Shown piece by piece: positions 3,623-27,516 of a stretch of DNA of 32,000 nt; positions within the stretch are counted from its first letter, which is position 1; every line of letters starts with the position of its first letter. The stretch lies in contig CAMCRD010000012.1 of NCBI GenBank assembly GCA_945877185.1, positions 1-32,000 on the forward strand, in the 5' to 3' direction. The notes below the pieces were generated by a model that was not told where the DNA came from, ran no database searches, and saw only the letters and a program-made list of their open reading frames with translations. This stretch comes from Candidatus Finniella inopinata (GTDB taxonomy: Bacteria; Pseudomonadota; Alphaproteobacteria; Paracaedibacterales; VGCI01). The translations under genes and the position numbers were made by a program.

Positions 3623-4594
3623 TTAAAGTTTGTCTTTAATCTCTATAAGGGTGTAACGTTTTTTCTTTAATTCATGGATTTTTTTGATTCTCTCAACCAT
3701 TTCATAAGAATAAAGCTGATAACCAGAGACGGTAATTTCTGAGACATCCAACAAACCTTCTTTTGTCCAGTGACGAATTGTAGAGTTTGATTCCCCCGTC
3801 ATTCTGGCTAATTCGCCAATTTTGAGGCTTTTTTCCATCTCGTTTTGAGCCTCGTCTTCTCCCCGAATGGCTTTCAGATAAATATCCAAAGAGCGCTCAA
3901 TGGCTTTATTGATCAGTTTTAAATAATCATCCTTTGATCCCCCTAACTGGGCTTTTTCTAAGGAAGCAATATACGCAAGACGGTCTTGTTTACGAATGAT
4001 AGCTGGGGGATACCCTTCCTTCATCAGAATCATGTTCATCAAAAGGCGGGCCGTTCGCCCATTACCATCGACAAATGGATGGATTGTCACAAGGCGATAG
4101 TGGGCCTCTGCTGCCCATTCAACAGAATGCCGTCCTTTTTTTTCTTGCATCCACGTACAGAATTCTTCCATCAACTGGGGAACTTTGCGGGGATTTAGCA
4201 AAATAACGGTCGATCCAGAAATCCGAACAGGCACATTTCTATAGTGCCCAGCGATCGTATCATCGATGCCTTTTAGAATGATTTCATGAATTTTGAGGAT
4301 GTCTTTTTCTGTAACCTCATGATGTTTGTTCTTAATCTGCTCTTTTACCCAATCGAGCGCTTGGGCATGGTGGGTAGCTTCTAGGTGTTCAATGAGGGAT
4401 TTACCACCGACCGTTAGTCCCTTTTCAACCACAAGAGCCGTCTCACGCCGGGTGAGCGTATTTCCCTCAAGAGCATTACTGGTATAGGTCAGCTCGATTC
4501 GAAACCAATCATCAAGATTTTGCACCAACGCCTCCGGAAAGGGGCGATGTTGGTCAAGAATTTTCTTTTTCTCAGTTAAGGCATCATAATTCAT
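3623..4594 (-). CDS. Fic-domain AMP-transferase with C-terminal MerR-type DNA-binding domain
   Basis: 323 residues from the ATG at 4594. The Fic core motif HPFVDGNGRTAR (172-183) is complete: catalytic His172 and the GNGR loop that grips ATP. Upstream, SNALEGN (about 39-45) is the class II inhibitory motif ((S/T)xxxE(G/N)), whose Glu43 blocks the active site. The enzyme should therefore be auto-inhibited and AMPylate a hydroxyl of a target protein when released. From about residue 257 the protein becomes a MerR-type winged helix (LKIGELARMTGESNSTIRHW, then SGYQLYSYEMVERIKKI). In-frame starts also exist at 4606 (ATG) and 4630 (TTG). The 4594 start is chosen because the predicted -10 box ends only 7 nt before it. 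The domain fusion and the palindrome in the gene's own promoter suggest autoregulation. Confidence 0.88.
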   Translation of the reverse strand: MNYDALTEKKKILDQHRPFPEALVQNLDDWFRIELTYTSNALEGNTLTRRETALVVEKGLTVGGKSLIEHLEATHHAQALDWVKEQIKNKHHEVTEKDILKIHEIILKGIDDTIAGHYRNVPVRISGSTVILLNPRKVPQLMEEFCTWMQEKKGRHSVEWAAEAHYRLVTIHPFVDGNGRTARLLMNMILMKEGYPPAIIRKQDRLAYIASLEKAQLGGSKDDYLKLINKAIERSLDIYLKAIRGEDEAQNEMEKSLKIGELARMTGESNSTIRHWTKEGLLDVSEITVSGYQLYSYEMVERIKKIHELKKKRYTLIEIKDKL

Positions 4595-4601
4595 ACCATA
4601 A

Positions 4602-4630
4602 AGCATAAACCATAACGTTATGGTTTTCAA
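4602..4630 (-). promoter_or_regulatory. fic promoter with a 20-bp palindrome filling the spacer
   Basis: On the minus strand TTGAAA (4630-4625), a 17-nt spacer and TATGCT (4607-4602) form a plausible sigma70 promoter. The spacer is occupied by the perfect palindrome AAACCATAACGTTATGGTTT (4607-4626). MerR-type regulators bind dyads in exactly this -35/-10 position, and the downstream protein carries a MerR-type domain. The predicted start of transcription falls at or next to the ATG at 4594, so the mRNA may be leaderless. The promoter call is an inference; the palindrome is directly visible. Confidence 0.5.
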
Positions 4631-8110: not shown

Positions 8111-8187
8111 GGCGGGGTAGCTCAGTTGGTTAGAGCAGCGGAATCATAATCCGTGGGTCGGGGGTTCAAGTCCCTCTCCCGCTACCA
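8111..8187 (+). tRNA. tRNA-Met (anticodon CAT), elongator type
   Basis: A complete 77-nt cloverleaf with encoded CCA. The acceptor stem GGCGGGG pairs with TCCCGCT through G-U at both ends. The D arm contains AGCTCAGTTGGTTAGAGC, the anticodon stem GCGGA/TCCGT encloses the loop ATCATAA with anticodon CAT, and the T arm contains GGGTTCAAGTCCC. The G1-U72 end pair argues against an initiator, where position 1 is unpaired. CAT also occurs in tRNA-Ile2, whose C34 is changed to lysidine; similarity to alphaproteobacterial elongator Met tRNAs makes Met the better call. No second copy of the 3' end is present in the window, so there is no evidence of use as an attachment site. Confidence 0.92.
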
Positions 8188-8354: not shown

Positions 8355-8600
8355 TTGACTAAAAGTATCATCAAGAGGTCTGTTGTTATTTCGGGTCACG
8401 CAACAAGCGTTTCTTTAGAGCCTGAATTCTGGGAAGTGTTGCGGGAAATTGCTGTGGCAGAAGATATATCAGTTGCCGCCCTTATCCGCCAGATTGATGA
8501 GAACCTTGTTCGATCCAGGCATCACAACCTTTCCAGTACCATCCGGATTTTCATCTTAAAACAATTACAAGAGCAGATAAAAAGTAAAAATATATCTTGA
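8355..8600 (+). CDS. Ribbon-helix-helix (RHH_4-type) small regulator
   Basis: 81 residues. The sequence VKRSVVISGHATSVSLEPEFW followed by LREIAVAEDISVAALIRQID and NLSSTIRIFIL matches the RHH_4 family (PF13467), common in alphaproteobacteria. In this family an N-terminal beta strand (around RSVVISG) and two helices form a dimeric DNA- or RNA-binding fold. The start must be the TTG at 8355, because an in-frame stop lies 7 nt upstream and no ATG exists near the N-terminus. No good Shine-Dalgarno is visible, so expression is probably low. It sits 167 nt after the tRNA and may belong to either the chromosome or the accessory region that follows. Confidence 0.75.
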   Translation: MTKSIIKRSVVISGHATSVSLEPEFWEVLREIAVAEDISVAALIRQIDENLVRSRHHNLSSTIRIFILKQLQEQIKSKNIS

Positions 8601-9953: not shown

Positions 9954-10364
9954 TTAAATTTCTTTCAATTTAAAAACACGGAACGTTTGATCTTTCTTGT
10001 ATTGCCCGTAAAGAGCGGGATGATCAGCCTTAAAGCGTTCCATATCCGGTATCGACCGGTTTTGCCCCTTCCAAGTGGCAAGGACGGTCTTCCCATCCAG
10101 GAGAATTTCATGCTTCTTCATATAGGCCATGATGCGAGCCTTGGTTATTTCTTCACGCTCAATTAACTTTTTCTTGGCCTTATAAATGAGCGCAAGGATC
10201 TCCACATCTTGTTGAATGTCTTTCGTAACCTGACAACCTGTGGCTTTAGATATTGGGTATAAGGATTGAACATCATGTAAACTCCTTGGTTTTGGGGCTT
10301 TTCTTTTTAACACATGCCCCCCTGCTTCTTTTTGCGGGTCTGGTAGAAATTGTTGCTGGTTCAT
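9954..10364 (-). CDS. Stand-alone C-terminal domain of a YqaJ-type phage recombinase (relic or small protein)
   Basis: 136 residues. The C-terminal half resembles the tail that follows the nuclease core in YqaJ-type viral exonucleases: a coiled-coil helix (IYKAKKKLIEREEITKARIMAYMKKHEIL), then DGKTVLATWKGQNRSIPDMERFKADHPALYGQY and RVFKLKE. The nuclease core is absent. The N-terminal 45 residues are polar and not recognised. A plausible Shine-Dalgarno (AAAGGAA) precedes the ATG at 10364, so this may be an expressed small protein rather than a plain deletion remnant. The gene is divergent from the methylase, sharing a 117-bp region with an operator-like palindrome (10403-10422). Confidence 0.6.
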   Translation of the reverse strand: MNQQQFLPDPQKEAGGHVLKRKAPKPRSLHDVQSLYPISKATGCQVTKDIQQDVEILALIYKAKKKLIEREEITKARIMAYMKKHEILLDGKTVLATWKGQNRSIPDMERFKADHPALYGQYKKDQTFRVFKLKEI

Positions 10365-10402: not shown

Positions 10403-10422
10403 TGAGGTATTATAGTACCATA
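10403..10422. promoter_or_regulatory. Operator-like palindrome, GGTA-N6-TACC, copy 1
   Basis: TGAGGTATTATAGTACCATA is an imperfect palindrome with half-sites GGTA and TACC six bases apart. It contains TATAGT (10411-10416), a good -10 match for rightward transcription toward the methylase at 10482. The same element, identical at 16 of 20 bases, lies at 17927-17946 upstream of the holin gene. Confidence 0.55.
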
Positions 10423-10481
10423 AAATATTTCTTATGTGTCAAAAAATGGTTTCAATTTTTTATGTGTAAAGGAGTTATGGT

Positions 10482-12317
10482 ATGGATAGGGGTAGACCGG
10501 AAGCAATCAAGGACAGGGCGGTTCTTTTTGAGATTTTCAAGCGCGTGGAGAGCTACCTGTGGGATGCCAATGTAGAATCTGGGCTACCCCGCTTCCTTGA
10601 GCTTGCCAACCTCATATTTTTGAAACTTTTGGAAGAGCGGCAAAAAGACCCTTTATGGGCGTCACTGAAATCTGAGCAAAACAAAATACAATACCTTAAT
10701 GGGTTTATCATTCCAAGTTTACAAGCAAAATATAAGGCACAGGATATTTTCGCCGAATCTAAAATAACCAATGAAACCGTTGTCAAAAAGATTGTGGCTA
10801 TTTTGGATAATTACCATCTGGCGTCTTTTGACTCAGATATTTTAGGTGATGCTTTTGAATATTTCTTGAGGAACAACATATCGTCAAAGCAAAACTTGGG
10901 GCAATATTTTACGCCCCGTCCTATTGTCAAAGCAATGGTTGCCTTGGTATCGCCGACAAACAAAGACACGGTTTATGATCCTTTTTGTGGCACGGGCGGA
11001 CTTTTAACAGGGGCGTTCAATACCATCAAGGAAAGGGAGTCGACCGTCGACCTTGACCCCTCAAAAGAAAAAAATATAACAACCCTATTTTTTGGCAAGG
11101 ATGTTTCTATTTCAACCCGTGTTGCTAAAATGAATGCTATCCTGCACTGGGGTGACCACAGCGGCATTGAACAGGTTGCCAACACCCTTGAGCACCCGAT
11201 ACGCGAAAAGTATTCCGTCGGCCTTACAAATGTCCCCTTTGCCCGTGACTTAAAAAACTACCCGTACAATGAGTTGTACGAAAACGGGCTTGCGAGGAAA
11301 AAGACAGATGTCCTGTCCATCCTCCACCTTTTTCAATCCATCCAAACAGGTGGGAGGATGGCTGCCATTGTTCCCGAAGGTTTTTTGTTTGGCACAGAGC
11401 GTGCTGACGCCAGGCGGTTTTTAACGAACAATGCCGATCTCCGGCTTGTTGTGTCTTTGCCCCATGGGGCTTTTCTCCCCTATACGAATGTAAAGACGGC
11501 CATCGTATATTTTGAAAATATCCGTTGCCCCAAGCAGAAAGACCATTTTTGGTACTTCGATGTTGATGAGTGGCAAAATTGCCTTGACACCCTACAAAAC
11601 AAAAATTTCAATGGCTCGTCAGAAGAAGAGCTAATCTCCCTTGGTTATGTGAAAGTCCCCTTTGAAAAAATACGACAAAATAATGAAAACTGGATTGGCA
11701 AACATTATTCAGACAGCAGTGCCGCCCATTCGCTCTATCCCCTTGTACCCCTTGGCAAATTGGTCAATTTCATCTCTACGGGTTTTTCCTACAATACCAA
11801 CCAGTTATCAGATGATGGCATTCCCCTGTTCACCTTGAAATCTGTGAAAAAAGATTTTTTCCTCAATTGCGAAACAAAATTTTTGAAGTATGAAACACAC
11901 ACAGATAAAAAGAACACCTGCGTTGAAGGGGATATACTCATTGCAATGAAGGACAAGAACAGGGAATCTGCCATTCTGGGACGGGCAACTATTGCCAATA
12001 AGAATGGAATATTTTCATCTGACCTGGTTAAACTTGAGGTTGATGCAAAGAATCTGGTATTAAGCGAATACTTGTATTATTTCTTCAAAAACGAAACGTA
12101 TATCAAGGAAATCAAGAAGTTTTCTGCGGGAAGCATTGTCAAGAGCATCACTTTGGAAAATATGGCATCGATCAAAATCCCCCTTCCGCCCCTCATCGTA
12201 CAAAAGGAAGTGGTCAAGGAGTTTAACCAATATGAAAAAATGATTATGGCACAGAATGAAACCGCCAATTTCTTTCATGAGAAATGCCAGGAGCGACTGA
12301 AATCACTTTGGGCGTAA
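10482..12317 (+). CDS. N6-adenine DNA methyltransferase fused to an HsdS-like recognition domain
   Basis: 611 residues. The N-terminal helical domain (1-130) is HsdM-like. NLGQYFTPRPIVKAMV (138-153) is motif X, and DPFCGTGG (166-173) is motif I, the SAM-binding loop. The catalytic motif IV, normally (N/D)PPF/Y, reads TNVPF (249-253). Residues from about 415 form one target-recognition domain of the HsdS type, ending in the typical SITLENMASIKIPLPPLIVQKEVV and a C-terminal helix. One polypeptide thus carries methylation and a half-site specificity module and may dimerise. No hsdR or other nuclease is adjacent, so it looks like a solitary methylase, probably modifying phage or host DNA. A strong AAGGAG site precedes the ATG. 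Confidence 0.85.
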   Translation: MDRGRPEAIKDRAVLFEIFKRVESYLWDANVESGLPRFLELANLIFLKLLEERQKDPLWASLKSEQNKIQYLNGFIIPSLQAKYKAQDIFAESKITNETVVKKIVAILDNYHLASFDSDILGDAFEYFLRNNISSKQNLGQYFTPRPIVKAMVALVSPTNKDTVYDPFCGTGGLLTGAFNTIKERESTVDLDPSKEKNITTLFFGKDVSISTRVAKMNAILHWGDHSGIEQVANTLEHPIREKYSVGLTNVPFARDLKNYPYNELYENGLARKKTDVLSILHLFQSIQTGGRMAAIVPEGFLFGTERADARRFLTNNADLRLVVSLPHGAFLPYTNVKTAIVYFENIRCPKQKDHFWYFDVDEWQNCLDTLQNKNFNGSSEEELISLGYVKVPFEKIRQNNENWIGKHYSDSSAAHSLYPLVPLGKLVNFISTGFSYNTNQLSDDGIPLFTLKSVKKDFFLNCETKFLKYETHTDKKNTCVEGDILIAMKDKNRESAILGRATIANKNGIFSSDLVKLEVDAKNLVLSEYLYYFFKNETYIKEIKKFSAGSIVKSITLENMASIKIPLPPLIVQKEVVKEFNQYEKMIMAQNETANFFHEKCQERLKSLWA

Positions 12318-12369
12318 TTTTAAACAGGGAATGCCTTTTATTGTTCACGAAAACCAAGGGGTAGCTGTA

Positions 12370-13881
12370 TTAAAATCTCCACACTCCCCTTGAGCGTGGT
12401 ATTTTGTTAGTTATGAAGAAACTGGTATCATAATAATAATTTTTCAATGCTGTTATGGTAGCTCTAATTATTGGAAACAATAGGATCAATAAGCCAATAC
12501 ATAGAGGCAGGGAAGCAAGGTGCATAAAGAAAGTTCGATACCCCTCAAGAGGATTACCAACTGCAAGGGGCGTCATATCACTTACAGAAAGCTGGGCAAC
12601 AGATCCCGCCAGGTAATGCCCGTAAGCGATTGCCATAGGCCAGAAACTCATGAGGATGCCTTTAAAACGAGGAGGCGCATGTTGGGATATCTTTGAAATG
12701 CTGACGGGTGTAATCCAGCATCCCCCGATGGCTTGAATGAATAAGACGCCAACTATCCATATAAGAGGAATGGAAGAGCCATTCTCTTGATATGTACTTA
12801 ATGCTAAAATACCAAAGCTAAGTGCAAAGCATAAAAAACCGATTCCCATTTTGATAAATCCATTCATGGGCTTTGTTTTTTCAAAATATCGGCGGCATAA
12901 CAAGAAAAGGAGAGGGCTGCAGAAGAGGATAAAAAGGGAGTCCAGGGAAAGGAGAGTAGCAGAGGGGATAACCGTACCCATCACTTGACGGTTTACAGCC
13001 TTTTCATAAAACAGCATTAAGGAAGTCCCCGCTTGCTCAACGAGAGCGCAACAGAAAACAAATAATAGTAGATAAGCTATAATCGTTAAAACGTCTTTTC
13101 TTTCCTGGGAATTGCACTGATAAAATATTTTCCCAAGATAGGCAATACTTCCAACCGTTATAATTCCCATGAGGCTATGAAAGGATTCCTGGTATTTAAA
13201 AACCAGATAGAGAAAGATAATAAGAGCTAGGTTGCTCCCATAGAGTGTCCATGAAGAAAGGGATGACTCTTCCTTATGGGAGGGGTGAAAGTGCATGTGC
13301 TTATAAACAAAGTAGGTTGACCCCATAAAAACAACAGCAAGCAGCATGATTCCATACTGCCATCCATAGGTTTTTCCAACCAGACCACAAATAAGAGGTG
13401 CAATACAGTTCCCTAAACAGGCTGCTGTGAAAAGAAAGGAATATACTTTATCTTTTTCAGGGTCTTTTGGATTCTCAAAGAGCATCCCTACAGCTGTCAA
13501 AAGGTTGGGCTTGGAATAGCCTGACCCAAGGCTTGTTAAAGCTAATCCCAAGAACATGAAATCAATAGAAGGAGATAAAACACATAAAAGTCCTAAAGAA
13601 CTTAGGAACCCTCCCAGCATGATAGTTTTTTTAACACCCAGCCCCTTATCAGCCATATAGCCGCCAAGGAGAGAGGTTCCATAACAGAGCATCATAAAGA
13701 TGGCGAAAAGATGGACTGCTTGGGTTTCCTTTAAAAAAAACTGGTTGATGGCGTAAAGAACAAAGATGGCTCTCAAGCCATAAAAGCCCCCGTTAAAAAG
13801 AATTTGGGTCGCATACACAGATTTAAAGTCTGTGAAATGTTGTTTCAAGTTATGCTGTTTTACTTTTGGCGTGTACCTCAT
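12370..13881 (-). CDS. POT-family (PTR2) proton-coupled peptide transporter-like MFS protein
   Basis: 503 residues with 12-14 hydrophobic segments. GGYMADKGLGVKKTIMLGG (73-91) matches the POT signature GG-x-x-AD-x-x-x-G, and LTSLGSGYSKPNLLTAVG (116-133) matches the TM4 region (GxGxxKPN). The TM1 motif ExxERFxYYG, whose acidic residues couple protons, is replaced by ILFNGGFYG (27-35), so substrate or coupling may differ from classic peptide carriers. POT relatives in intracellular bacteria import peptides and other nutrients. AGGAG lies about 8 nt before the ATG. The gene is 11 bp downstream of a 223-aa gene and probably co-transcribed with it. Confidence 0.85.
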   Translation of the reverse strand: MRYTPKVKQHNLKQHFTDFKSVYATQILFNGGFYGLRAIFVLYAINQFFLKETQAVHLFAIFMMLCYGTSLLGGYMADKGLGVKKTIMLGGFLSSLGLLCVLSPSIDFMFLGLALTSLGSGYSKPNLLTAVGMLFENPKDPEKDKVYSFLFTAACLGNCIAPLICGLVGKTYGWQYGIMLLAVVFMGSTYFVYKHMHFHPSHKEESSLSSWTLYGSNLALIIFLYLVFKYQESFHSLMGIITVGSIAYLGKIFYQCNSQERKDVLTIIAYLLLFVFCCALVEQAGTSLMLFYEKAVNRQVMGTVIPSATLLSLDSLFILFCSPLLFLLCRRYFEKTKPMNGFIKMGIGFLCFALSFGILALSTYQENGSSIPLIWIVGVLFIQAIGGCWITPVSISKISQHAPPRFKGILMSFWPMAIAYGHYLAGSVAQLSVSDMTPLAVGNPLEGYRTFFMHLASLPLCIGLLILLFPIIRATITALKNYYYDTSFFITNKIPRSRGVWRF

Positions 13882-13892
13882 GGCTACAACTC

Positions 13893-14564
13893 CTAACCGA
13901 AAAATTTTAAGCAGGGGTTAGATTTTAAATAATTTCGGATAGCGGGGTTGGCACTTTGATCCTCCCATAACGTTTGCCGGAAATCTCGGTTAACGTCATC
14001 CATAAGGTCGATCAGTTTATCAAAGGTTTTTTGACTTGCAGGGATCAGCAATTGCGTTTTTGTACCTGTTATTGTGGGAACCTTGTCCTTATGGGTAGCC
14101 AGTTGTTCATACGCAGCCAAAATATAACCATCTGGCCTATCTTCTGCTTCCACAAGCACGTTTAAAGCGTCCGCATGGTCACCACAAAATAAAAGGATTC
14201 GTTCCAAGGTTTTCAACTGGAATTGAATGAGGATCATGCCATGCAACGTTTCATCTTCTTCGATCAATTCGTCGAGGTCGTCCGTTGCGATATCAGGAAA
14301 GTGGCAAACGACAGTTCCGTCTTCTAGTTCTTCTCCCTGTTCATCGCTATGGATTTTCAAGTTGATTTCACATTCCAGCCTGTGAAAAAGGTCACAAGCA
14401 GCAAGGGTATAATGGGGATGCCCTTTCTCTTGGATTTCGGTTATAAACCCTGTGACTGGGTTTTGAAGTGATTTTTTCTTTTGAACAGGGGTGGGGTTAG
14501 AAACTACGAGTTTTAAGTGGGCGTTTTTCTTCTGAGCTTTGGGATCATTAAAAGATACTGACAT
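13893..14564 (-). CDS. Hypothetical protein, 223 aa
   Basis: Not recognised. The first 45 residues are basic and disordered-looking (QKKNAHLKLVV, VQKKKSLQ). The rest is an acidic soluble domain with a strongly negative stretch (DLDELIEEDE) followed by an amphipathic helix (LIQFQLKTLERILLF). No membrane segments or catalytic motifs are visible. It is the first gene of a likely operon with the POT carrier, reading from the minus-strand half of the symmetric promoter at 14610-14646. The phage-like neighbourhood suggests accessory cargo, but no function can be given. Confidence 0.6.
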   Translation of the reverse strand: MSVSFNDPKAQKKNAHLKLVVSNPTPVQKKKSLQNPVTGFITEIQEKGHPHYTLAACDLFHRLECEINLKIHSDEQGEELEDGTVVCHFPDIATDDLDELIEEDETLHGMILIQFQLKTLERILLFCGDHADALNVLVEAEDRPDGYILAAYEQLATHKDKVPTITGTKTQLLIPASQKTFDKLIDLMDDVNRDFRQTLWEDQSANPAIRNYLKSNPCLKFFG

Positions 14565-14606
14565 AATGTTGTTTCTCTTTTTCTAAAATTGATTTATGTA
14601 TCACTT

Positions 14607-14649
14607 ATATTGACATATATAAACGTATATAGTATATATATGTCAATAT
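14607..14649. promoter_or_regulatory. Mirror-symmetric divergent promoter in a 15-bp inverted repeat
   Basis: ATATTGACATATATA (14607-14621) and its exact reverse complement (14635-14649) flank a 13-bp centre. Each arm carries a perfect TTGACA. On the plus strand TTGACA (14610-14615) is followed after 17 nt by TATATA (14633-14638). On the minus strand TTGACA (14646-14641) is followed after 17 nt by TTTATA (14623-14618). Both would be strong promoters, facing the 14908 regulator and the 14564 operon. The two polymerase sites overlap completely, so only one direction can be occupied at a time. Confidence 0.7.
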
Positions 14650-14766
14650 TATATGTGTTGTAACATAAAAATTTCAGCTAAAAATTTGCCGTTAATGCCA
14701 TTTAATTGATTTTGTCAGCAAAGATGTTGTCCATAATCAAATGAATTGAAGTGTCCTTAAAATAAG

Positions 14767-14796
14767 TTGTAAATGATTCTGAAATTTATTTATAAT
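14767..14796 (+). promoter_or_regulatory. Candidate proximal promoter of the Xre-type regulator
   Basis: TTGTAA (14767-14772), 18 nt, then a perfect TATAAT (14791-14796), about 110 nt upstream of the ATG at 14908. The surrounding AT richness lowers confidence. Confidence 0.4.
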
Positions 14797-14907
14797 TTAT
14801 TTATAATTTATAGATATATTTAAGATAAAACGAAGGGGGCTGGTTATATTGATAAATGGTGAGATTTATGTTATGCTTCTTTATCTAAATAAGAAAGATT
14901 CTATTTT

Positions 14908-15201
14908 ATGAATAAAAAAAATATCCCCCGAGAGCCAGGGCTGAGGCTTCGTAATTTAAGGGAACAGCTAGGTCTTTCAAGGGCAGAGTTTGCCGCAATT
15001 ACAGGCACAAGTGCCAGTACGATGAGGTCTTTGGAAATTGGCAACCTCGAACTCGCTCCCTCCAAAGCTCTCTTATATTCTAATCTGTTCATGTATATGT
15101 TTGAGGTAGATTCTGACGAGGCTAGTAGTGATATGATATTGTATGGTGAACAAAGAGATACCCAGCCAAGTAGAAAGAAGATCATTATCAGGAAGGCTTA
15201 G
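14908..15201 (+). CDS. Xre-family helix-turn-helix regulator, 97 aa
   Basis: An HTH_3-type domain spans about residues 10-60: LRLRNLREQLGLSRAEFAAITGTSASTMRSLEIGN contains the Q/R-x-x-L-G-L-S-x-x-x-F/L-A pattern, the turn and the recognition helix. A basic tail (PSRKKIIIRKA) ends the protein. Such small proteins repress prophage, plasmid or accessory operons, often their own promoter. The divergent symmetric promoter to its left is the obvious candidate target, but this is inference. The Shine-Dalgarno is weak. Confidence 0.8.
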   Translation: MNKKNIPREPGLRLRNLREQLGLSRAEFAAITGTSASTMRSLEIGNLELAPSKALLYSNLFMYMFEVDSDEASSDMILYGEQRDTQPSRKKIIIRKA

Positions 15202-15282
15202 TGTTTAAGCTGGAACCGTACCCCCTTTATAATCCAAGGTAAGTCCGGAATATTTTTTGGGTCATTTCCAGTGCCATACGAT

Positions 15283-16623
15283 TTATATAGCGGGAATAGA
15301 TTTATTATATAACCTGCGTTTACGTTGTAATTCTGTAAAATGTTTGATTCCATAGAGAAAACCAAAGGCGGTAGGCAAAGTGATAATCCAAAGCCCGAAG
15401 TGACCAAAGCAACTTCCCAGGTATATGAGTCCGAATGAGGTTATTACATACATCAAGGCTCTGGATATTGACCATAGAATGCTTGCGAAAGTGAACCGAC
15501 GATAAACCGGAAAATGACTCATAAAAACAGCATATGACGGCATCGCCTCTAATGCCATAATAACAGTTAATGCCTGTATGAAGAATAACTGGGTGGCACT
15601 TGTCAAATTTATAGCCAAAAAAGGCAAGGATATCAGCAAAAAAAGCCCCAAAGTTCCTCTTATCCTGTTGATCTTTAGGGGATGAATTCGATAACTGAGG
15701 TATGTTACAAAAATACTGCAAATTAGAGCAATTAAGGACAAAAAGAAATTATGTCTGATAATATCTTCAGGAGAGTATCCGAAACTTTCTTTTAGGGTCG
15801 GATTAAAATAAAAATATGTTATGTACATACACAGAGGTACCCCACAAGATATCAAAAAATATGATACCAAAGTTTTAGTTTTTACAGGCTCTTTCCAAGT
15901 CGCATTGACTACTGCTCCCTCCTCTGTTCCGAGACGAGCATCGGATTCAAGGTGTGTTTTCTGTGTCTCTTCTTTCATCCATAGTCTTTCCATTTCGAGA
16001 AATTCAGGAGTTTCTCGAAGGCGAGTTCGAGCAAATGCGCCGACAATCGCAATAGCTGCTCCAACCCAAAAGGCATAACGCCAATTCAAACCGGAATTGG
16101 TAACAAAAAAAGCAATGCCAAGAGCGAACAATACCCCTAAATTAGCAGATACGTCTAAAAATGCAGTGGCTGGATAACGAGCAGGAAGTTGAATCGACTC
16201 TGTTAGATAAATTTCCGCTGCTGTAATTTCTCCCATAGATGAGATGCCTTGAGCGATTCGACAGAATATCATAATCCAAGACGCAGCTATGCCGATTTGG
16301 GCATAGGTCGGAAGGTTGGCCATCGCAATGCAGGAAATCGCCATCATGACGGTTGTAATAATGATCGTTGGTTTTCGACCAATACGATCGCCAATTCTTC
16401 CAAGGATCAGGGCGCCAATTGGCCTGAAAACGAAGGTAGAACAAAATGCGGTAGCCGCCAGAATAGATGTTGTAAAGGGATCAGTTTTGGGAAAGAAAAG
16501 TTCATTGAGAAGCACAGCCATGTGTACATAGAGCATCAGGTCAAAATATTCCAGGAATGTACCGACCTGTAAGAGAGCAATCGATTCTTTTTGCTCTCGG
16601 CTTAGAGATGAAAGTAGTTGCAT
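15283..16623 (-). CDS. MFS transporter, metabolite:H+ symporter (ProP-like, MHS) family
   Basis: 446 residues, about 12 TM segments. FLEYFDLMLYVHMA (23-36) is close to the MHS TM1 signature (FxExFDFxxYG), GRIGDRIGRK (75-84) is MFS motif A, and CRIAQGISSMGEITAAEIYLTE (121-142) matches the QG-x-x-x-GGE region of ProP/ShiA-like carriers. LRETPEF (about 209) is the typical MHS loop after TM6. The substrate is unknown; ProP-type osmolyte or organic-acid proton symport is likely. AAGGAAG stands before the ATG. It is a paralogue of the carrier at 415-1722 and sits between phage-like genes. Confidence 0.87.
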   Translation of the reverse strand: MQLLSSLSREQKESIALLQVGTFLEYFDLMLYVHMAVLLNELFFPKTDPFTTSILAATAFCSTFVFRPIGALILGRIGDRIGRKPTIIITTVMMAISCIAMANLPTYAQIGIAASWIMIFCRIAQGISSMGEITAAEIYLTESIQLPARYPATAFLDVSANLGVLFALGIAFFVTNSGLNWRYAFWVGAAIAIVGAFARTRLRETPEFLEMERLWMKEETQKTHLESDARLGTEEGAVVNATWKEPVKTKTLVSYFLISCGVPLCMYITYFYFNPTLKESFGYSPEDIIRHNFFLSLIALICSIFVTYLSYRIHPLKINRIRGTLGLFLLISLPFLAINLTSATQLFFIQALTVIMALEAMPSYAVFMSHFPVYRRFTFASILWSISRALMYVITSFGLIYLGSCFGHFGLWIITLPTAFGFLYGIKHFTELQRKRRLYNKSIPAI

Positions 16624-16654
16624 ATTTCTTCCTTTTTTCTCTTATGTCTTTGCT

Positions 16655-16684
16655 TTATTGCTATCAATGAACACCTTTGTCAAC
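16655..16684 (-). promoter_or_regulatory. Candidate promoter of the second MHS transporter
   Basis: A perfect TTGACA lies on the minus strand at 16684-16679. The -10 is poor: CAATAA at 18 nt spacing (16660-16655). The gene starts at 16623 with a good Shine-Dalgarno. Confidence 0.35.
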
Positions 16685-16794
16685 CTTCTAATCGTTGTGT
16701 CATCTTGTTCTTTTTGACGCATATATCCCTAAACAATTGATAATCTATCTATTTTGGTTAAAGCTTACAAGAGAAAAGAAACGTGAGAAAATCT

Positions 16795-17433
16795 TTATTG
16801 TCCTGCTTTGAATAATCCAAAAAAGACGACCGCTATTTTTTGGAAAATAGATGGGCTTGCAGATACCCTTGGCACAGATGAGCGGGGCTTCCGGTATTGA
16901 AAAGGCAGGATATCTGGACGTGGCTTTAGGGGCATAATCTCATATTCTTGGCTGAGAAAGAGCATTCTTTCCCTCCGCCTTCGGGACACTAGCCCTGGAA
17001 ACTTTATTAATCCTTTGGCGGGGTGCCTTCCATAAACCCATCGGTCAAACTCAAGGCTTGCGGCCTTATATTCTTTCCGGTTGAGCTTTTGCCGCAAGGT
17101 AGACGACTGAAACCGACCAGACCCCAGATTGAATATAAACGACACAAGGGCTGCTTGCTGGTTGTCCGTTAAGGGGACATGAACAAGACGGAAAAGGGTT
17201 TGATAAGCTATCACCATATCGGATTCGAGGAACTGCAATGCCCTGTCTTCCGTAATAGTGTCACCTATCTTCAAACAATCACGTGCTTCAAGGACATGCC
17301 CCCAACCAACGGTTTCGTAGCCCGCTGGACAGATATAGGCGATAAGCTTCAGCTTTTCCTCTTTTTTAATAAAGTCCTGGGTTGGGAGGAACGAAGGAAG
17401 CTGCCGGATGTTTACCCTGTTCTGGTTCGACAT
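16795..17433 (-). CDS. Phage endolysin, GH24 lysozyme with E-C-T catalytic triad
   Basis: 212 residues. FIKKEEKLKLIAYICPAGYE and TVGWGH carry the GH24 active site: Glu26, Cys35 and Thr41, with the 9- and 6-residue spacing of phage P1 lysozyme, whose Cys takes the place of the usual Asp. DNQQAALVSFIFNLGSGRFQSSTL (about 88-111) is the conserved helix of phage lysozymes. It hydrolyses peptidoglycan glycan strands. The N-terminus lacks a signal or SAR anchor. Instead there is a basic, Pro-rich linker and a hydrophobic C-terminus (IFQKIAVVFFGLFKAGQ). It follows the holin by 10 bp, forming a lysis cassette. Release probably needs the holin. Confidence 0.9.
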   Translation of the reverse strand: MSNQNRVNIRQLPSFLPTQDFIKKEEKLKLIAYICPAGYETVGWGHVLEARDCLKIGDTITEDRALQFLESDMVIAYQTLFRLVHVPLTDNQQAALVSFIFNLGSGRFQSSTLRQKLNRKEYKAASLEFDRWVYGRHPAKGLIKFPGLVSRRRRERMLFLSQEYEIMPLKPRPDILPFQYRKPRSSVPRVSASPSIFQKIAVVFFGLFKAGQ

Positions 17434-17443
17434 TTACCATCTC

Positions 17444-17887
17444 CTATTTGCGTTTAAAGGCGCGGTGGCCAAACCAGAAAGAAATAATGGCGCAGAAAAT
17501 GGTTTGGTCTTCTTCAGACCAGATTTGAACGAGGGATACGGCGACATCATTGTTATAACGATATAAAAGGAAAAAGGCCGAGATTTTGATCCAGGCGTAA
17601 AGGCTGAAGAAAGCATAGCTTAAAACGGGACGAACGGATGTGGAGAGGGCGTCTATGGCTGAATTGCCGCTTTTAGCAGCAAACTGGTAAATATACTGGT
17701 TCTCATTCGCATCTGCCATCGCGCCAATTTCAGCGATGCGGTTATGGTGGCCTTTCTCCATAAACTCCATTTGCCTGTCGAGGATGGCGAGTTCATGAGC
17801 CTTGTCTTTCCGGTCTTTGACCATAGAAAATATATCCGGCAAGAGACTACTAGCAAACCCGACCAAACTACCCAATAATGCAAACAT
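17444..17887 (-). CDS. Phage holin-like 3TM protein
   Basis: 147 residues. It has a hydrophobic N-terminal segment (about 1-20), a charged helical middle with a heptad-like run (KDRKDKAHELAILDRQMEFMEKG), and two C-terminal TM segments (about 87-110 and 127-143) with SVRPVLSYAFFSLYAW. This organisation matches the 3TM holin family (PF11351, gene-transfer/phage release) found next to lysozymes. It would form membrane lesions that let the endolysin reach the wall. An AAGGAAA site precedes the ATG. A palindromic operator 40-59 nt upstream of the start suggests dedicated control of lysis. Confidence 0.75.
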   Translation of the reverse strand: MFALLGSLVGFASSLLPDIFSMVKDRKDKAHELAILDRQMEFMEKGHHNRIAEIGAMADANENQYIYQFAAKSGNSAIDALSTSVRPVLSYAFFSLYAWIKISAFFLLYRYNNDVAVSLVQIWSEEDQTIFCAIISFWFGHRAFKRK

Positions 17888-17926
17888 CGTCTTTTTCCTT
17901 ATAAATGGAGCAGGAGATCACTAAAA

Positions 17927-17946
17927 TATGGTATCATAATACCATA
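17927..17946. promoter_or_regulatory. Operator-like palindrome, GGTA-N6-TACC, copy 2
   Basis: TATGGTATCATAATACCATA. The perfect arms are 11 bp each (17924-17934 and 17939-17949) around a 4-base centre. It overlaps the likely leftward promoter of the holin gene: on the minus strand TTGCAT, 16 nt, then TATGGT inside the palindrome. It matches the element at 10403-10422 at 16 of 20 bases, including both half-sites and the spacing. Confidence 0.6.
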
Positions 17947-18010: not shown

Positions 18011-18165
18011 AATGGGCTTTAACCTTAAGCCCATTTGGTGATATCAGACAAAAAATGGGGTCAACCCCTCAAATAGATTATTGTTTATTAATGGTTCAAT
18101 GGGTTCAACCCATCTGCAAAAATAAGCAGGAAAATTTTTAAAAATAGACGATGGGTGACACCCAT
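18011..18165. repeat. Cluster of four TGGG/CCCA palindromes
   Basis: AATGGGCTT (18011-18019) pairs with AAGCCCATT (18027-18035). GGGGTCAACCCC is at 18057-18068, ATGGGTTCAACCCAT at 18099-18113 and ATGGGTGACACCCAT at 18151-18165. The last two are perfect 7-bp arms around one base and share ATGGGT/ACCCAT. Centres are about 40, 44 and 52 bp apart. There is no T-run after any of them, so they look like protein-binding sites rather than terminators. Confidence 0.6.
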
Positions 18166-18240
18166 TAAAATTAATCGCTTGTAAGCAAGAAAAGAAACAG
18201 TTACATAGAAAAATAAACACATTTTTGTTGATGGTTTTAA

Positions 18241-18505: not shown

Positions 18506-21500
18506 TTATTTCAAGTAACCTAAACCTAGCCCTTCCCATACGGGAGCCAACGCTGGTTCTAGGTAAAACAGATTTTGCCCAGGGAAATTCCTTTTTACGA
18601 GCTTTAAGCTTGCTTTCTTGCCTTTGTCCCAATCCCCGTTTTTTGCATCCGTAAAAAGTGCTGCAACATCGGTTACAACACCCGCCATCGGCCCTGCCAT
18701 TTCGGTTATCGCTGTGTGTCCATAACGGGAATATTCCTGAAACAAAAAGTCCCCGAATATTCCCAAACCACCTCCTTTGAGAACGGCTGCTTGCCATACC
18801 TTGCCATCGGTGGGGTCAGGTACATCCTCCCCTTTATTTATCTTATTGGTCGACATAGAAAGATAGCCCAGAACCGTTGAGCCAATCAATAACTGCCCCA
18901 TAAGATTGATGGTCGTGGGATTTTGGAGGCTTCTTACAATGTCTTTCCAGTTTCCCGTCCGTTCGGCAATTGGCACCTGATCTACGGTAACGGACTTCAG
19001 CGGCCTCATAATGAACGTTAGGGGAAACGTCTTGAACTGCATTAAGAAGCGCACAGCCTCTCCAAACGGTGTTCCTGGCGTTGTTCCTGCAAATATTAAG
19101 TACCGCTCTATTTGGCCTGGCGTTGCGATGCCTGTATCAACGCGATCTAAAATATATCCTCGAACCGCTTGGGCTAAATTTTCCTTTGCTGGCTCGATAA
19201 GATCGCCGGAAATTCCAGCCCGTTCAAAATGGGTATCTTTGATCGACAGGATTTTGTCGGGGATGAGGTAGGCGTTTCCCTCAACCATTTCTGTGGCATG
19301 GCGCAAGATGCCCCACTCCTCGCTTGAGATGCCGTAATGGGTGAGTTTATCCCTCAAGACTTTTGGCAGGGCATGGAAATCCTTAAGGGATGATTCCGCC
19401 AGATGGTTTGAGAGAAGCATCCCCATGGTATGCTTGAATGACCGATCCCACCATTCCATGCAGTTTGCCTTAAAGAAGGCGTTCGTGAGTTTTGTCATTG
19501 CTCCTGGTATTGGGCTATCGGCATTCAGGCGGGAATAGCCAAACCCGAGCAGGTTGTCGCAAGCAATCCCTAATTTACGGGCAAGGGACTTCTTCTCATC
19601 AGAAGAAAGCGAGTAGGTCAGGGCTTTCAGGATATTCCCATAAGACTTAAAGAGGTTAATGCCATTGTTTTGAAGCTCCACCGCCCAATTTGCCATATCA
19701 GGAAAGGATGAGATCACCACTTTGCCAAGCGAAGCCATGGATTTCACATTCCGAACCGTCTGGCAATACATGGCAGTTTTAGGATTTTCGGGTGTGTTAT
19801 GTCCCATCATCCAGTCGAGCATGCCGTTTAAGTGTTCCCTCTCCACCCTTTTCATTTCGGTTAAGCTTCCATCGTCCATAGACGCCCTTCCGCGCAAGTC
19901 TTCAACAAGTCTCTTCTGAAGGTTCCTGAAAGTTACTGCAGGGTTAGACCCCAAGGTTTCCAGCAAGCCAATGCTCTCCCCAATGCGTTCCAGGTTGATC
20001 ATCACCGAATCGGAGAGGCGATAGAGGCCGCAAGCTTCGTTGTATTTGAGCCAATCGTCAGCCGACTTAAAATGCAGTTTTCGGGGGGCAGAGAGTTTCG
20101 AGGCAATATCGGATGAAGAAGAGCGATGCACATGGGTGTACTCCTCAAGACACGTAAAGTGCTTGCCCGTGGCGAGGGCTTCAAAGACATTTTTTAAATT
20201 CACCTTACTTTCTACAAAAGTTTTCTCGTGATCAAGAAGGGGCATGATAAATCGCGTCCATTCTTGCAGCCCCATTTTACGGATGGCCGAATCCGAATGG
20301 GTCTGGCGGGTGATATACCCTTCTATGGGAGTGAGGTACGCTCCCGCCTTATTTGCCCGATTGATGGCGATGGTTTGCCACTTGTGGATGATCTTTGCCA
20401 GGGCTTGGGCTTGGGGGTTGTTGGTCAACCCCCCTAGGCGCGCCTGTGCCAGACCCGTCTGAGGTTGCAAGGAGGGTTTGGTCAAGGCTTCCAGTTCGCG
20501 GGCAATGTCGCCATGGTGCGCTTTATTTTTGAAAGTGCTGACTAAATCCTGTTGTTCCAGGTCGTAAAAGAACCCATTCCGCAATTCCCCTGAAGCGGTT
20601 TTTTGCCGCAATTCAACCTGCCTCAAAAGATTTTTGAGACCCAAATAAGGGCTTTTGTGACGGGTCACAAAATCGTAGGCATCCTCCAGGCGGACAGCAG
20701 AGATCGACTGTTCCCGTTGTTCTAAACCGATGGCTTCTGCCATCTCTCGCACAACACTTTCCGCTTTTTGCTCAACAGCTTCCCTTGATACAAGCTCCGG
20801 CACGCGTGTCTCTGGTGAGTTTTTCAGTTGATGAAGCTCTTCAAGCCCTGCGACAAATTCTTCCTTACCTGCAAAATTAGTGTGTTCAAGCGATTCACGA
20901 AGGGTGAGGTAGGTTGCATCATCCATACCCTGTTTGACCAATTCAACGCTTTCTGTTAATGCCTTTGATACGGACAAGTCGGTCGCTCGCCCTTCTTGTT
21001 CGACCAAATCGGGGACTTCCCATGCTTCCTCAGTCAACACGGCATCTTTTTCATAAAAGGATTCGGCCTTATGGGGTTCTTCGAGATTGATATGCTTTCC
21101 CGCGTTGATTTGGGATTTGGCGATATACAGGTCATCGATAGACAAGTCGTAAGCTTTATCTTGATATTGCTGCTCCCGAATCCGGTTGCGGATGAGCTTG
21201 TCGACTTCCTGGGTTGATTGTTGGTAGGATTCCCATTCAGGGTTGCCTTTCAATTCTTCCCTGGCTGACGATAGTTCATCCCTGGCCGCCTGAAGCTGTC
21301 CCCGCAAATTGTCGGGGATATGCGCTTCCTCGCCGCCCGTCTTGTATTCCGTATGCAACGCCTCTTCTAATTGGTAAACCTCAAGCTCTTTTTGAAGGAG
21401 GGGGCGTAACTCCGGATGGTTGGCAGCCTGGTCAAAAAGATGCCCTTTGAGTTGGTAAAGGTCTTTCAGGGGGGTCTCAGGCGTGGTGAACTGCCGTAAA

Positions 21501-22327
21501 GTCGGATCAAGGTTTTCCCACTCAACATTTTCCGGCTTGAAATGGGTCTCTCTGGCTACCTGATGGATACTATCCTTAAATCCCTGCTTCATGACTGAAT
21601 TTTGATGATCCCAAGGGGTGTGCAACTGCTCTGGGCTGGCAAAGAAACGGTTCTTAAGCTTGGATGCCCCATATCCAAGAGCATGGATGCCCGCCCCTAA
21701 AGCCGCGGCGGCAGCGATATCGAACCCCGCCTCCTTTACGCCATAGGGGGATTGTTCAAAATAACGGTTTGCCGCAACCACAGGCGTTATCCCTGCCTGG
21801 AAAACGGCATTGGCTGCCGCTCCTTTCAGCATGCCGCCACTGAACGCCCCTGCCTTGGCGATGATTTGCCCCCAACGCGCTTGCCCACCAATTGGGATGA
21901 AAGAGGCTGCAATGTTGGTGGGGGAGGCAAAAGACGTGAGTATTGAGGTGCCAAAAGAGCCTAATGCCTCAATCACCCCACCCTGACCTTTTGAGATAAT
22001 GAAATGGTTTGCCGCTTCCTGGGTTTTGCGGATATGTAACGTCTCCGCTTCTTCAACCGTCATATGGGGGTTCCACTCAAACAGACGCGTCTGGGACAGA
22101 CTCGTCTGGGAGGGTGCATTGGGGTAAAGGGATTCAAACTCTTCTTGGGAGAGTTTATCCGTATTAAAGTACCGTTCTTTCGTGTGTCCGTACAAACGAA
22201 TAGCCAGCATCTCAGGGTTATCGAGAAATGATTCCCGCCCCACCGCCCGCCAGACATCAAGGGAAGACGGGGGGTGGAGGTCAAAGAAGTTTTTATGCGC
22301 CTGGGGGGTAAAATAAATTTCAGCCAT
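18506..22327 (-). CDS. Large internal virion protein (T7 gp16-like DNA-ejection protein)
   Basis: 1273 residues. After a short N-terminal domain there is a Gly/Ala-rich hydrophobic stretch (about 115-215: GSFGTSILTSFASPTN, GAFSGGMLKGAAANAVF, AAAAALGAGIHALGYGA), then a long charged coiled-coil region and a C-terminal helical domain. The C-terminal GTTPGTPFGEAVRFLMQFKTFP and the closing GLGIFGDFLFQEYSR, EMAGPMAGVVTDVAALFTD and NFPGQNLFYLEPAL stretches recur in large internal virion proteins of podoviral prophages. It probably forms part of the ejection channel across the periplasm. I see no transglycosylase motif, unlike T7 gp16. It is the last structural gene of the module. Its start overlaps the preceding stop by one base (TAATG). 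Confidence 0.7.
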   Translation of the reverse strand: MAEIYFTPQAHKNFFDLHPPSSLDVWRAVGRESFLDNPEMLAIRLYGHTKERYFNTDKLSQEEFESLYPNAPSQTSLSQTRLFEWNPHMTVEEAETLHIRKTQEAANHFIISKGQGGVIEALGSFGTSILTSFASPTNIAASFIPIGGQARWGQIIAKAGAFSGGMLKGAAANAVFQAGITPVVAANRYFEQSPYGVKEAGFDIAAAAALGAGIHALGYGASKLKNRFFASPEQLHTPWDHQNSVMKQGFKDSIHQVARETHFKPENVEWENLDPTLRQFTTPETPLKDLYQLKGHLFDQAANHPELRPLLQKELEVYQLEEALHTEYKTGGEEAHIPDNLRGQLQAARDELSSAREELKGNPEWESYQQSTQEVDKLIRNRIREQQYQDKAYDLSIDDLYIAKSQINAGKHINLEEPHKAESFYEKDAVLTEEAWEVPDLVEQEGRATDLSVSKALTESVELVKQGMDDATYLTLRESLEHTNFAGKEEFVAGLEELHQLKNSPETRVPELVSREAVEQKAESVVREMAEAIGLEQREQSISAVRLEDAYDFVTRHKSPYLGLKNLLRQVELRQKTASGELRNGFFYDLEQQDLVSTFKNKAHHGDIARELEALTKPSLQPQTGLAQARLGGLTNNPQAQALAKIIHKWQTIAINRANKAGAYLTPIEGYITRQTHSDSAIRKMGLQEWTRFIMPLLDHEKTFVESKVNLKNVFEALATGKHFTCLEEYTHVHRSSSSDIASKLSAPRKLHFKSADDWLKYNEACGLYRLSDSVMINLERIGESIGLLETLGSNPAVTFRNLQKRLVEDLRGRASMDDGSLTEMKRVEREHLNGMLDWMMGHNTPENPKTAMYCQTVRNVKSMASLGKVVISSFPDMANWAVELQNNGINLFKSYGNILKALTYSLSSDEKKSLARKLGIACDNLLGFGYSRLNADSPIPGAMTKLTNAFFKANCMEWWDRSFKHTMGMLLSNHLAESSLKDFHALPKVLRDKLTHYGISSEEWGILRHATEMVEGNAYLIPDKILSIKDTHFERAGISGDLIEPAKENLAQAVRGYILDRVDTGIATPGQIERYLIFAGTTPGTPFGEAVRFLMQFKTFPLTFIMRPLKSVTVDQVPIAERTGNWKDIVRSLQNPTTINLMGQLLIGSTVLGYLSMSTNKINKGEDVPDPTDGKVWQAAVLKGGGLGIFGDFLFQEYSRYGHTAITEMAGPMAGVVTDVAALFTDAKNGDWDKGKKASLKLVKRNFPGQNLFYLEPALAPVWEGLGLGYLK

Positions 22328-23883
22328 TACATAAACAATGCGTCTTCAGTGGTAGTTCGGGAAATATCAACATCATCTTTCTCTATGCCTTTAAATCGCG
22401 CTATATTTTCATCCTGGCTGACGAACAAATCCACATCAAATTTATTTTGGGCAATACAATCGTAATGCCCCATGAGGATGCGCGTTGCATCTGTATAATG
22501 CAGGAGCTTTAACATGACGTCGATTGGGTCGGGTTCCATTTGAGTGTCATCTGTCATGCCGAGGTTCTTTGGAATTTCGCCACCGTTTAACACCGTACCC
22601 AGGGCGTTCCGATAAAATCGGTTATGGTGCGCGGCTTCCCAAAAAGCAAAAAGAACTGCAAACTGTTTCAACTCTTCGGGAAATTTTTGATAGAGGGAGA
22701 AACATTTAAGGTCAAAACCATAACCGTCTGATTTTATCCTGGCTAATTCCCCTTCCTTCGGCCAAGGGTTGTCAGAGTTTGCAAAATGGGCGGCTCTTTC
22801 CCTTTCCAGCTTGGCTATGGCGATAAACCGCGCAAGGATTTGCTCCTCATCAGCTTCTTGATCTGTGTTATAAATCTGGACGGTAACAGGCTCGTTTCGA
22901 GACCAAAGCAACATATGATTCCATTGCGTGACGGCTTCCGAGAGGTGAAGGGAAGTATCTATTTCCTCGTTCTCAAGTTCCGCTATGAGATTGTCGATTC
23001 CATCATCTTTAATTTCTTCTTCCTGACCGTCAATGTCTTCTATGAGGTTGCCAGTTTCATCCCCTTGCATTGCCTCATTTTTGGCTGCTTGCATAGCGGC
23101 AGCTTGCAAGCTCTCAACCTGGAAAGCCTTTAATTCCTGGTAGTCTGATTCCAGATTTTTTAAAGCTTGTTTGAGGTTTCTGATTTCAAGGTTGCCTTCT
23201 TTGGCTTTAAGCCCGTTCTGTTCTGCCAACTTTCTGTAAGCTTCAACTTTATCTTCAAGCCCTTCAATGATAAACCCTTGCTCCTCAAGTTTACTTCTGT
23301 ATTCCTCAAAAAAAGCAGAAGACACGTCCCCATCTTCTTTTATTTCTATCCCAAGTTCTCCGGTGAATGATCCCGACTCGGAAATTTCGACTAATGAAAC
23401 TGAATCACTTACTGCAAAACCGGAATCTTTTTCATCCTCCGTTTTTATGTCGGCACCGGTTGTATTGAGGTCAACACGGGAAACGATTTCAAAGATGATT
23501 TTGTCGTCTTTCAGGGAAGTCAGATACGTAGCTAAGGCTTCAAGTTTCTCTTGTGGGCTTCTGCCAACATAAATTTTTGACCTGGTTAGCTCCTGAAGCA
23601 AAGGCGCACAAAACGTGAACAAATATGTTTTACCCGAATCAGAATCAGTCGGGTTGGCTTTGGTGGATTTCCCAAGGATTGCACCAGGGGTTTGCTTAAA
23701 AAATAAAAGGTCATGCGGTTGCAAGACGACTTCATGGGTTTTCGCAAAAACAAATTTAATCTTCACGACAGAAAGTTGTGAGGGCGTCATGTACAGTTTT
23801 AGAGGCGTTTCTTTTTTTCTGGCAGCATATTTCTTGATTTTCTTTAAAAAAGCATTCTTTTTCATCTCGATTATTTTTGGCAT
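22327..23883 (-). CDS. Unrecognised phage-module protein, 518 aa, coiled coil
   Basis: The start at 23883 is preferred over a TTG 18 nt upstream because AAGGAGAC sits just before it. The N-terminus is very basic (KKNAFLKKIKKYAARKKE), followed by a beta-rich part (about 30-120), an acidic, Ser-rich middle, and a coiled coil (about 200-270: EEYRSKLEEQGFIIEGLEDK, KLAEQNGLKAKEGNLEIRNL). A polyacidic segment (EDIDGQEEEIKDDGIDNLIAELENEE) leads to a helical C-terminal domain. I do not recognise the family. It sits inside the internal-virion gene block and is translationally coupled to the next gene, so a role in the virion or its assembly is likely but unproven. Confidence 0.65.
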   Translation of the reverse strand: MPKIIEMKKNAFLKKIKKYAARKKETPLKLYMTPSQLSVVKIKFVFAKTHEVVLQPHDLLFFKQTPGAILGKSTKANPTDSDSGKTYLFTFCAPLLQELTRSKIYVGRSPQEKLEALATYLTSLKDDKIIFEIVSRVDLNTTGADIKTEDEKDSGFAVSDSVSLVEISESGSFTGELGIEIKEDGDVSSAFFEEYRSKLEEQGFIIEGLEDKVEAYRKLAEQNGLKAKEGNLEIRNLKQALKNLESDYQELKAFQVESLQAAAMQAAKNEAMQGDETGNLIEDIDGQEEEIKDDGIDNLIAELENEEIDTSLHLSEAVTQWNHMLLWSRNEPVTVQIYNTDQEADEEQILARFIAIAKLERERAAHFANSDNPWPKEGELARIKSDGYGFDLKCFSLYQKFPEELKQFAVLFAFWEAAHHNRFYRNALGTVLNGGEIPKNLGMTDDTQMEPDPIDVMLKLLHYTDATRILMGHYDCIAQNKFDVDLFVSQDENIARFKGIEKDDVDISRTTTEDALFM

Positions 23884-23916
23884 AATATTGTCTCCTTTCA
23901 AACGAGTTTCTTTACT

Positions 23917-24738
23917 TTACAGATAGCTATATTTCAACCTGTCTTTGGACAAGGCGAGAACTTCGTTGACAATGGTTTCCTCAAGGTCTGTGGGGGCTTG
24001 GTTTTGTCTATAAAAATCAACTAGGCTACTCAGGAGATTTGTGATGGTTTTTAAGGCGAGGACAAATACCTCCTCCCGCCGGAAGTCTGCCAGGGTATCC
24101 GCATTCATGAGGTTTATGATATAGTTGTGGGTATCTTTTAAAACCCGATCTAACCGTTTCTGATATCCCCTTAAACAGACCCTCGCGCTGTCATGGATAT
24201 TGCGGGATGCTTCAAGCTTTGATTCCCCATCGGGATAGAGTTCGGCATTATGGAGGCTTTTGGGATTGATCACCTGCATCAAATTGTTCTGAAACACCGT
24301 AACCAGATCATCCATGACTAAAGAGATGATTCCGCCTGTTAAAATCCTGTTTTGCTTGCGCTCCCAATCTTTCGGCATCGTGAACACACAGGATGCACCT
24401 TGGGGAATTTCCTCATCTTTCAGGAAACGGTCTCGCTCCCTTTTCGTGAGGATAGAAAGGGTAAACTGGTTGTTCCCGCCTTCCTTTTCCACAAAACCCA
24501 GCTTCAGGTATTCAAAATTGCCGGAGTCACCAACTCTGTCGAAGGTCGACCCCCTGTCCTCCAAGGGATCTTGTTGGATCAGCCGCCAGGCAAGCGGATG
24601 CTGGTACTGGCAATAAAGGGTGAGGATACCATAACCAATCAGGTTTTCTGTGGGACACAGGGTTGGGATAGACCCGACCTTGTTTTTCCGCATCAGGGTT
24701 TGAAGTACGCTTGGGGGAGCAAAATGGTAGAATTTCAT
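23917..24738 (-). CDS. Unrecognised phage-module protein, 273 aa
   Basis: The start at 24738 is chosen over an ATG 21 nt upstream because GAAAGG lies at the right distance. MKFYHFAPPSVLQTLMRKNKV and IPTLCPTENLIGYGIL suggest a compact N-terminal fold. The middle (about 90-135) is beta/charged and the C-terminal half is all helical (DDLVTVFQNNLMQV, NIHDSARVCLRGYQKRLDRVL, NYIINLMNADTLADFRREE). No catalytic motif, signal or TM segment. It lies between the gp15-like and the 518-aa gene on the same strand with gaps of 27 and 33 bp, so it is part of the late operon. Confidence 0.6.
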   Translation of the reverse strand: MKFYHFAPPSVLQTLMRKNKVGSIPTLCPTENLIGYGILTLYCQYQHPLAWRLIQQDPLEDRGSTFDRVGDSGNFEYLKLGFVEKEGGNNQFTLSILTKRERDRFLKDEEIPQGASCVFTMPKDWERKQNRILTGGIISLVMDDLVTVFQNNLMQVINPKSLHNAELYPDGESKLEASRNIHDSARVCLRGYQKRLDRVLKDTHNYIINLMNADTLADFRREEVFVLALKTITNLLSSLVDFYRQNQAPTDLEETIVNEVLALSKDRLKYSYL

Positions 24739-24765
24739 ATGGATTAACCTTTCTCTCATAATGTA

Positions 24766-27503: not shown

Positions 27504-27516
27504 GGGCGACTTTCCC

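Follow-up and report, generated by a model that had tools for sequence, protein, structure and literature searches.

Operators of the host rplM-rpsI type in an alphaproteobacterial prophage, and a host-derived RHH_4 protein as their candidate regulator

Arc and Mnt of phage P22 are small phage-encoded ribbon-helix-helix repressors that act on short palindromes; to our knowledge both lie outside the RHH_4 family (PF13467), and we know of no host counterpart of either that controls ribosomal genes. In two further systems, a phage draws upon a regulator of its host. TgrL of Caulobacter phage phiCbK is a phage copy of a class-wide alphaproteobacterial regulator with the host XRE counterparts CdxA, RtrA and RtrB; TgrL and the host proteins bind a common set of genes and influence virion production and activators of lysis (PMC10688885). 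The temperate phage GIL01 carries the operator of host LexA on its lytic genes (PMC4551915). Phage copies of a host regulator and phage use of a host operator are thus both already known (PMC10688885, PMC4551915). The Wolbachia repressor of Liberibacter phage genes is a 56-aa protein that, according to its authors, lacks homologues in other Wolbachia (PMC5463029).

The prophage described here shares with phiCbK a phage-borne copy of a host regulator and, we propose, common targets; it differs in that TgrL is an XRE helix-turn-helix protein of a lytic phage with adhesion and gene-transfer-agent targets, whereas here the protein is a ribbon-helix-helix, the candidate host target is an operon for ribosomal proteins, and it is a prophage's own packaging and lysis units that bear the operator. 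With GIL01 it would share a lytic switch that reads host physiology through a host regulator's operator; however, GIL01 relies on LexA and the SOS response in a Gram-positive host and uses a phage co-factor, in contrast to the putative ribosomal-operon regulator and its phage-encoded copy considered here.

Two palindromes and the prophage that carries them

The window (the whole 32-kb stretch analysed) belongs to contig C12 of a 1.85-Mb alphaproteobacterial genome and holds most of a T7-like prophage, the rest of which is on contig C7. Its relevant features are as follows.

8137–8153, + strand: 17-bp attachment core AGCGGAATCATAATCCG, inside tRNA-Met (8111–8187), repeated at C7:14139–14155 behind the integrase
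8355–8600, + strand: phage-borne RHH_4 ribbon-helix-helix protein, 81 aa, first gene inside attL (PF13467, E = 3.1e-24)
9954–10364, − strand: YqaJ/RecE-type exonuclease remnant, 136 aa, corresponding to residues 182–299 of the 303-aa intact relative on contig C74
10403–10422: operator 1, TGAGGTATTATAGTACCATA, between the yqaJ remnant (−) and the methylase gene (+); 25.3 bits with a matrix trained on rplM operators (below)
10482–12317, + strand: N6 DNA methylase fused to a type I specificity domain (PF02384, PF01420), 78% identical to the C74 copy
16795–17433, − strand: phage lysozyme/endolysin (PF00959, E = 5e-34)
17444–17887, − strand: putative holin, 147 aa, first gene of the lysis pair (phrog_6637, a family of unassigned function; position before the lysozyme)
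17927–17946: operator 2, TATGGTATCATAATACCATA, 39 bp 5' of the start codon of the lysis pair (− strand); 25.8 bits with the same matrix
18506–32000, − strand: late virion genes, continuing after a gap on C7:1–14007

Because gene order and attachment core agree, we assign C12 and C7 to a single prophage interrupted by a gap; there is no overlap between the contig ends, and the join is probable on those two grounds. C7:1–14007 carries, in the orientation of the late genes in the window, an integrase, primase, helicase, terS (phrog_4044), terL, head-tail adaptor, major head protein and tail protein, and the window supplies the remaining virion genes, the putative holin and the lysozyme. Part of a second, related prophage lies on C74 at a tRNA-Arg, with RHH_4, a 150-aa gene, recT, an intact yqaJ, a perfect operator, the methylase and a lysozyme; over the 750 bp that include RHH_4, the two prophages share 81.5% identity. 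In the window, neither the catalytic domain of the YqaJ/RecE-type exonuclease nor the recT downstream of it survives, whereas the neighbouring operator does. Methylase and lysozyme adjoin in C74, so the ~4.5-kb insertion at 12370–16623 of the window (two MFS transporters, a 223-aa protein and an Xre gene) looks like cargo or host DNA in a decaying prophage. At 3623–4630, the window also encodes a Fic domain joined to a DNA-binding domain of the MerR type (PF02661 + PF13411).

A first-pass annotation had described the two palindromes as a shared operator with 16 of 20 bases alike, each copy overlapping a promoter. Coordinates and likeness were both confirmed in the sequence, and the reading as one operator overlapping a putative promoter at either site is upheld; operator 1, which is conserved in C74, overlaps −10-like hexamers on both strands. 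The pattern GGTA-N6-TACC occurs exactly twice in the window against an expectation of 0.15, and the 20-bp element, with up to three mismatches allowed, was found there only at operators 1 and 2 and in none of 100 shuffles. As these counts exceed both expectation and shuffles, the palindromes are real and beyond chance.

The annotation had also seen no similar full element in other non-coding sequence, which holds within the window at that mismatch limit and fails for the genome as a whole, where further copies lie on C7, C74 and C83: at C7:7867 (5' of terL), C7:10257 (5' of terS), C74:7237 (the yqaJ–methylase junction of the second prophage) and C83:4194 (upstream of rplM-rpsI). The genome-wide motif scan that it proposed returned few matches, with none or one for a reversed control, as well as these copies beyond the two sites: the reversed pattern gave no matches in the first scan, and the looser pattern GGTANNATNNTACC was met at seven places in the genome against one for its reversed control. 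The window pair accounts for two of the seven, and C7:7867, C74:7237 and C83:4194 for three more; the remaining two fall in a coding region (C17) and 5' of a transposase (C99). One prophage therefore has at least four operators (one each upstream of terS, terL and the lysis pair, and one separating the yqaJ remnant from the methylase), and the same prophage encodes a candidate regulator, RHH_4, inside attL. The earlier reading had overlooked the operators of the terminase genes, that of rplM-rpsI in the host and, at 8355 of the window, the RHH_4 gene. Several inverted repeats of the form ATGGGT-n-ACCCAT lie within 18020–18170, in non-coding DNA that separates the lysis operator from the gene at 18241. 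Occurrence of the exact pattern in 66 viral contigs was close to chance expectation, and an operator match inside a conjugation gene (genome G014, locus L030), like single matches in coding sequences, was judged to be chance.

The operator upstream of rplM-rpsI

An element of the form RGGTA-nn-AT-nn-TACCY precedes rplM-rpsI, a ribosomal operon, in the host and in Alphaproteobacteria more broadly. Within the order, 29 of 30 genomes have it with at least six of the eight half-site bases (21 of them perfect), and it was found in most of the class genomes examined, GC-rich ones included, always upstream of a TTGAC-type promoter and 12 to ~37 bp upstream of the −35 box. When the exact form GGTANTATAATACC was sought in 142 class genomes, every site outside the prophages of this genome preceded rplM. 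A scan of ~85,000 species with WATGGTATNATNATACCATW placed 10 of 11 alphaproteobacterial sites and 0 of 69 others at rplM, among the matches listed; the eleventh alphaproteobacterial match listed is near a contig end. No consistent neighbour of rplM was found that could be its regulator gene. In one genome (G016), tandem copies of the operator stand ~23 bp apart upstream of rplM (GGTACCATAATACC ... GGTATTATGGTACC), and in a genome of the host genus (G002), which has RHH_4, one half of the rplM operator is gone (ATCACACTATAATACCAT); these loci are L108 and L117, respectively.

A scoring matrix was built from 49 rplM operators of genomes other than this one. It gave the four prophage sites 25.8, 25.3, 27.4 and 21.4 bits and the C74 site 23.5 bits, as compared to 17.6 bits for the best of 100 random copies and 11.5 bits for the next match in the prophage. 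Because a matrix trained only on rplM ranks them so far above chance, we conclude that the prophage operators are identical in type to the rplM operator. What the prophage sites share with the rplM-rpsI element is the palindrome and not the position upstream of a −35 box, since they overlap the −10 region.

That overlap raises the question of whether the palindromes are simply sigma-70 promoters firing in both directions from symmetric −10 boxes (TATTATAATA), with no dedicated regulator: divergent genes flank two of the sites, and both strands offer a TATAAT or TATTAT. However, it is the GGTA and TACC arms that are conserved and the centre that varies (GGTACCATAATACC, GGTAAAATGATACC), and at rplM the element is upstream of a separate TTGAC promoter and persists in GC-rich genomes, making this explanation very improbable.

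RHH_4 as the proposed reader and its host origin

The protein at 8355 scores 85.3 bits against PF13467, for which the curated cut-off is 25, and is predicted to form strands at residues 6–12 and 15–21 and helices at 23–35, 40–53 and 61–77 (mean pLDDT 71). In structure comparison, its best PDB match is 3kk4, with Arc also listed as a weak resemblance. The 3kk4 entry, BP1543 of Bordetella, is the only solved structure related to RHH_4 by sequence (E = 2.8e-7); it comes from another proteobacterial class, is uncharacterised and has no known operator.

The family is present in 111 of the 142 class genomes, and all 31 of those with an exact rplM site are RHH_4-positive. Among 70 genomes scored for both half-sites upstream of rplM, these were found in 37 of 42 with RHH_4 versus 2 of 28 without (Fisher p = 4.5e-12, not corrected for the tree, the class genomes being nearly all from different families). 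Some RHH_4-positive genomes were added by hand; since none of them had an exact site in the 142-genome scan, their addition works against the association. There are exceptions in both directions: G174 (class) and G026 (order) have an operator without a detected RHH_4, and G051, G057, G074, G131 and G159 have RHH_4 without a clear operator. This co-occurrence suggests that RHH_4, in its host and phage copies alike, probably recognises these operators. No operator was found upstream of the RHH_4 genes, which argues against autoregulation.

Two other readers have to be weighed. The first-pass annotation had favoured the Xre-type protein at 14908, which does have a helix-turn-helix domain and a gene lying between both sites. 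However, of the 42 order genomes only three, all of one genus, have a homologue, as compared to an rplM operator in nearly all, and the gene lies in the ~4.5-kb insertion missing from C74, which retains a perfect operator. Xre is not found wherever the operator occurs, so we reject it as a general reader, and that it should be the regulator at all is barely credible. Alternatively, one could envision another conserved alphaproteobacterial DNA-binding protein, with a distribution like that of RHH_4, reading the operator while RHH_4 is a passenger. The link to RHH_4 is one of co-occurrence, two genomes (G174 and G026) manage without a detected copy, and further class-wide regulators exist, such as the XRE protein CdxA (PMC10688885). 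Yet GcrA, an alphaproteobacterial regulator examined as a control, is associated with the operator much more weakly (p = 9e-5) and not significantly once RHH_4 is considered, whereas the RHH_4 association stays significant within both GcrA-positive and GcrA-negative genomes; moreover, RHH_4 alone is also carried, in host-derived form, by both operator-bearing prophages. We therefore find a different reader improbable and continue with RHH_4.

The analysis shows the phage copies to be of host origin. RHH_4 is present in 39 of 42 order genomes, in single copy in all but this one, which has three: one of the host and one in each prophage, the gene lying just inside the attachment site in both. 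The copy at C7:17789 adjoins an EipB-like gene, as in relatives, and is taken to be the chromosomal one for that reason. In the tree, the prophage copies group together (92/78) within the clade of the host genus (98/96), and the phage RHH_4 is derived from the host genus's own. The 8355 protein is 83% identical to the C74 prophage copy and 70% identical to the host copy. Along the N-terminal strand and into the beginning of helix 1 (IIKRSVVI-GHATSVSLEPEFW), host and phage differ only at one alanine/serine position, consistent with binding of the same operator.

As a phage gene, RHH_4 is not common: no match was found in 50,697 phage records, and the two remote matches in IMG/VR are both without the operator. 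A relative of the putative holin, with 77% identity, is found in viral contig L286 (IMGVR_UViG_3300045996_004298), which represents another kind of phage with its own portal and terminase and a related lysozyme, from which it appears that the lysis pair moves between phages. No operator is present at the lysis pair of that contig, ruling out phage-wide conservation of the holin operator. Taken with the absence of RHH_4 from phage records, this indicates that the arrangement is rare. A search of the open-access literature for RHH_4/PF13467, the palindrome, or DNA-level control of rplM-rpsI in Alphaproteobacteria yielded nothing relevant, and the class-wide regulator behind the prophage system appears to be undescribed.

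Proposed control of the lytic units and its significance

We consider it likely that the operators are the sites of an RHH_4 regulator taken from the host, which would activate rplM-rpsI and repress the phage units; both the binding and its sign we infer. On the chromosome, RHH_4 probably binds a single operator 5' of the promoter of rplM-rpsI (ribosomal proteins L13 and S9), where the position upstream of the −35 box suggests activation. In the lysogen, host and phage RHH_4 together would repress the packaging (terS, terL), lysis (holin-lysozyme) and recombination/modification (yqaJ and methylase) units: the phage operators overlap the −10 region and binding would block the promoter. They contain the only −10-like hexamers present there (TATAAT or TATTAT, often on both strands); that the phage promoters are otherwise weak by consensus weighs against the proposal. 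Silencing of the lytic genes in the lysogen and their release upon induction are what such a placement would predict. The suggestion of the first-pass annotation that one regulator ties the methylase or the YqaJ-like gene to lysis is probably right.

Repression is not the only sign that could be assigned. RHH_4 might bind these operators and instead act as a positive late regulator, switching on the late units of the phage, and its element at rplM, upstream of a complete promoter, does have the geometry of an activator site. In the prophage, however, the operator ends 30 bp before the start codon of terL, 39 bp before that of holin and 38 bp before that of yqaJ (59 bp for the methylase and about 270 bp for terS), which in the first three cases leaves no room for a promoter in between, and it overlaps the only −10-like hexamers available. 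We judge late activation unlikely and retain repression.

Each RHH_4 should act on the targets of the other as well, because the DNA-contacting strand is shared. A candidate signal for release from repression is growth state or ribosome supply, given the link of the host copy to rplM-rpsI. In its broadest form, the proposal is that RHH_4 is a class-wide factor dedicated to rplM-rpsI and that the prophage has made of it a two-way link, in which lysis and packaging read the host regulator and the phage copy acts on the host operon; on this our judgement is evenly balanced.

For ribosomal protein operons, the control known so far acts mostly through feedback at the mRNA, and it would be unexpected for alphaproteobacterial rplM-rpsI to have a conserved regulator dedicated to it at the level of DNA. 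If the proposal is true, it gives a function to the RHH_4 family, and reuse of a switch of the host growth machinery for lysis and packaging would constitute a new input to the lytic decision. The lineage has few genetic tools, and it is through the prophage that the idea becomes open to test. Packaging and lysis of the virus may be wired to a regulator of host ribosome synthesis.
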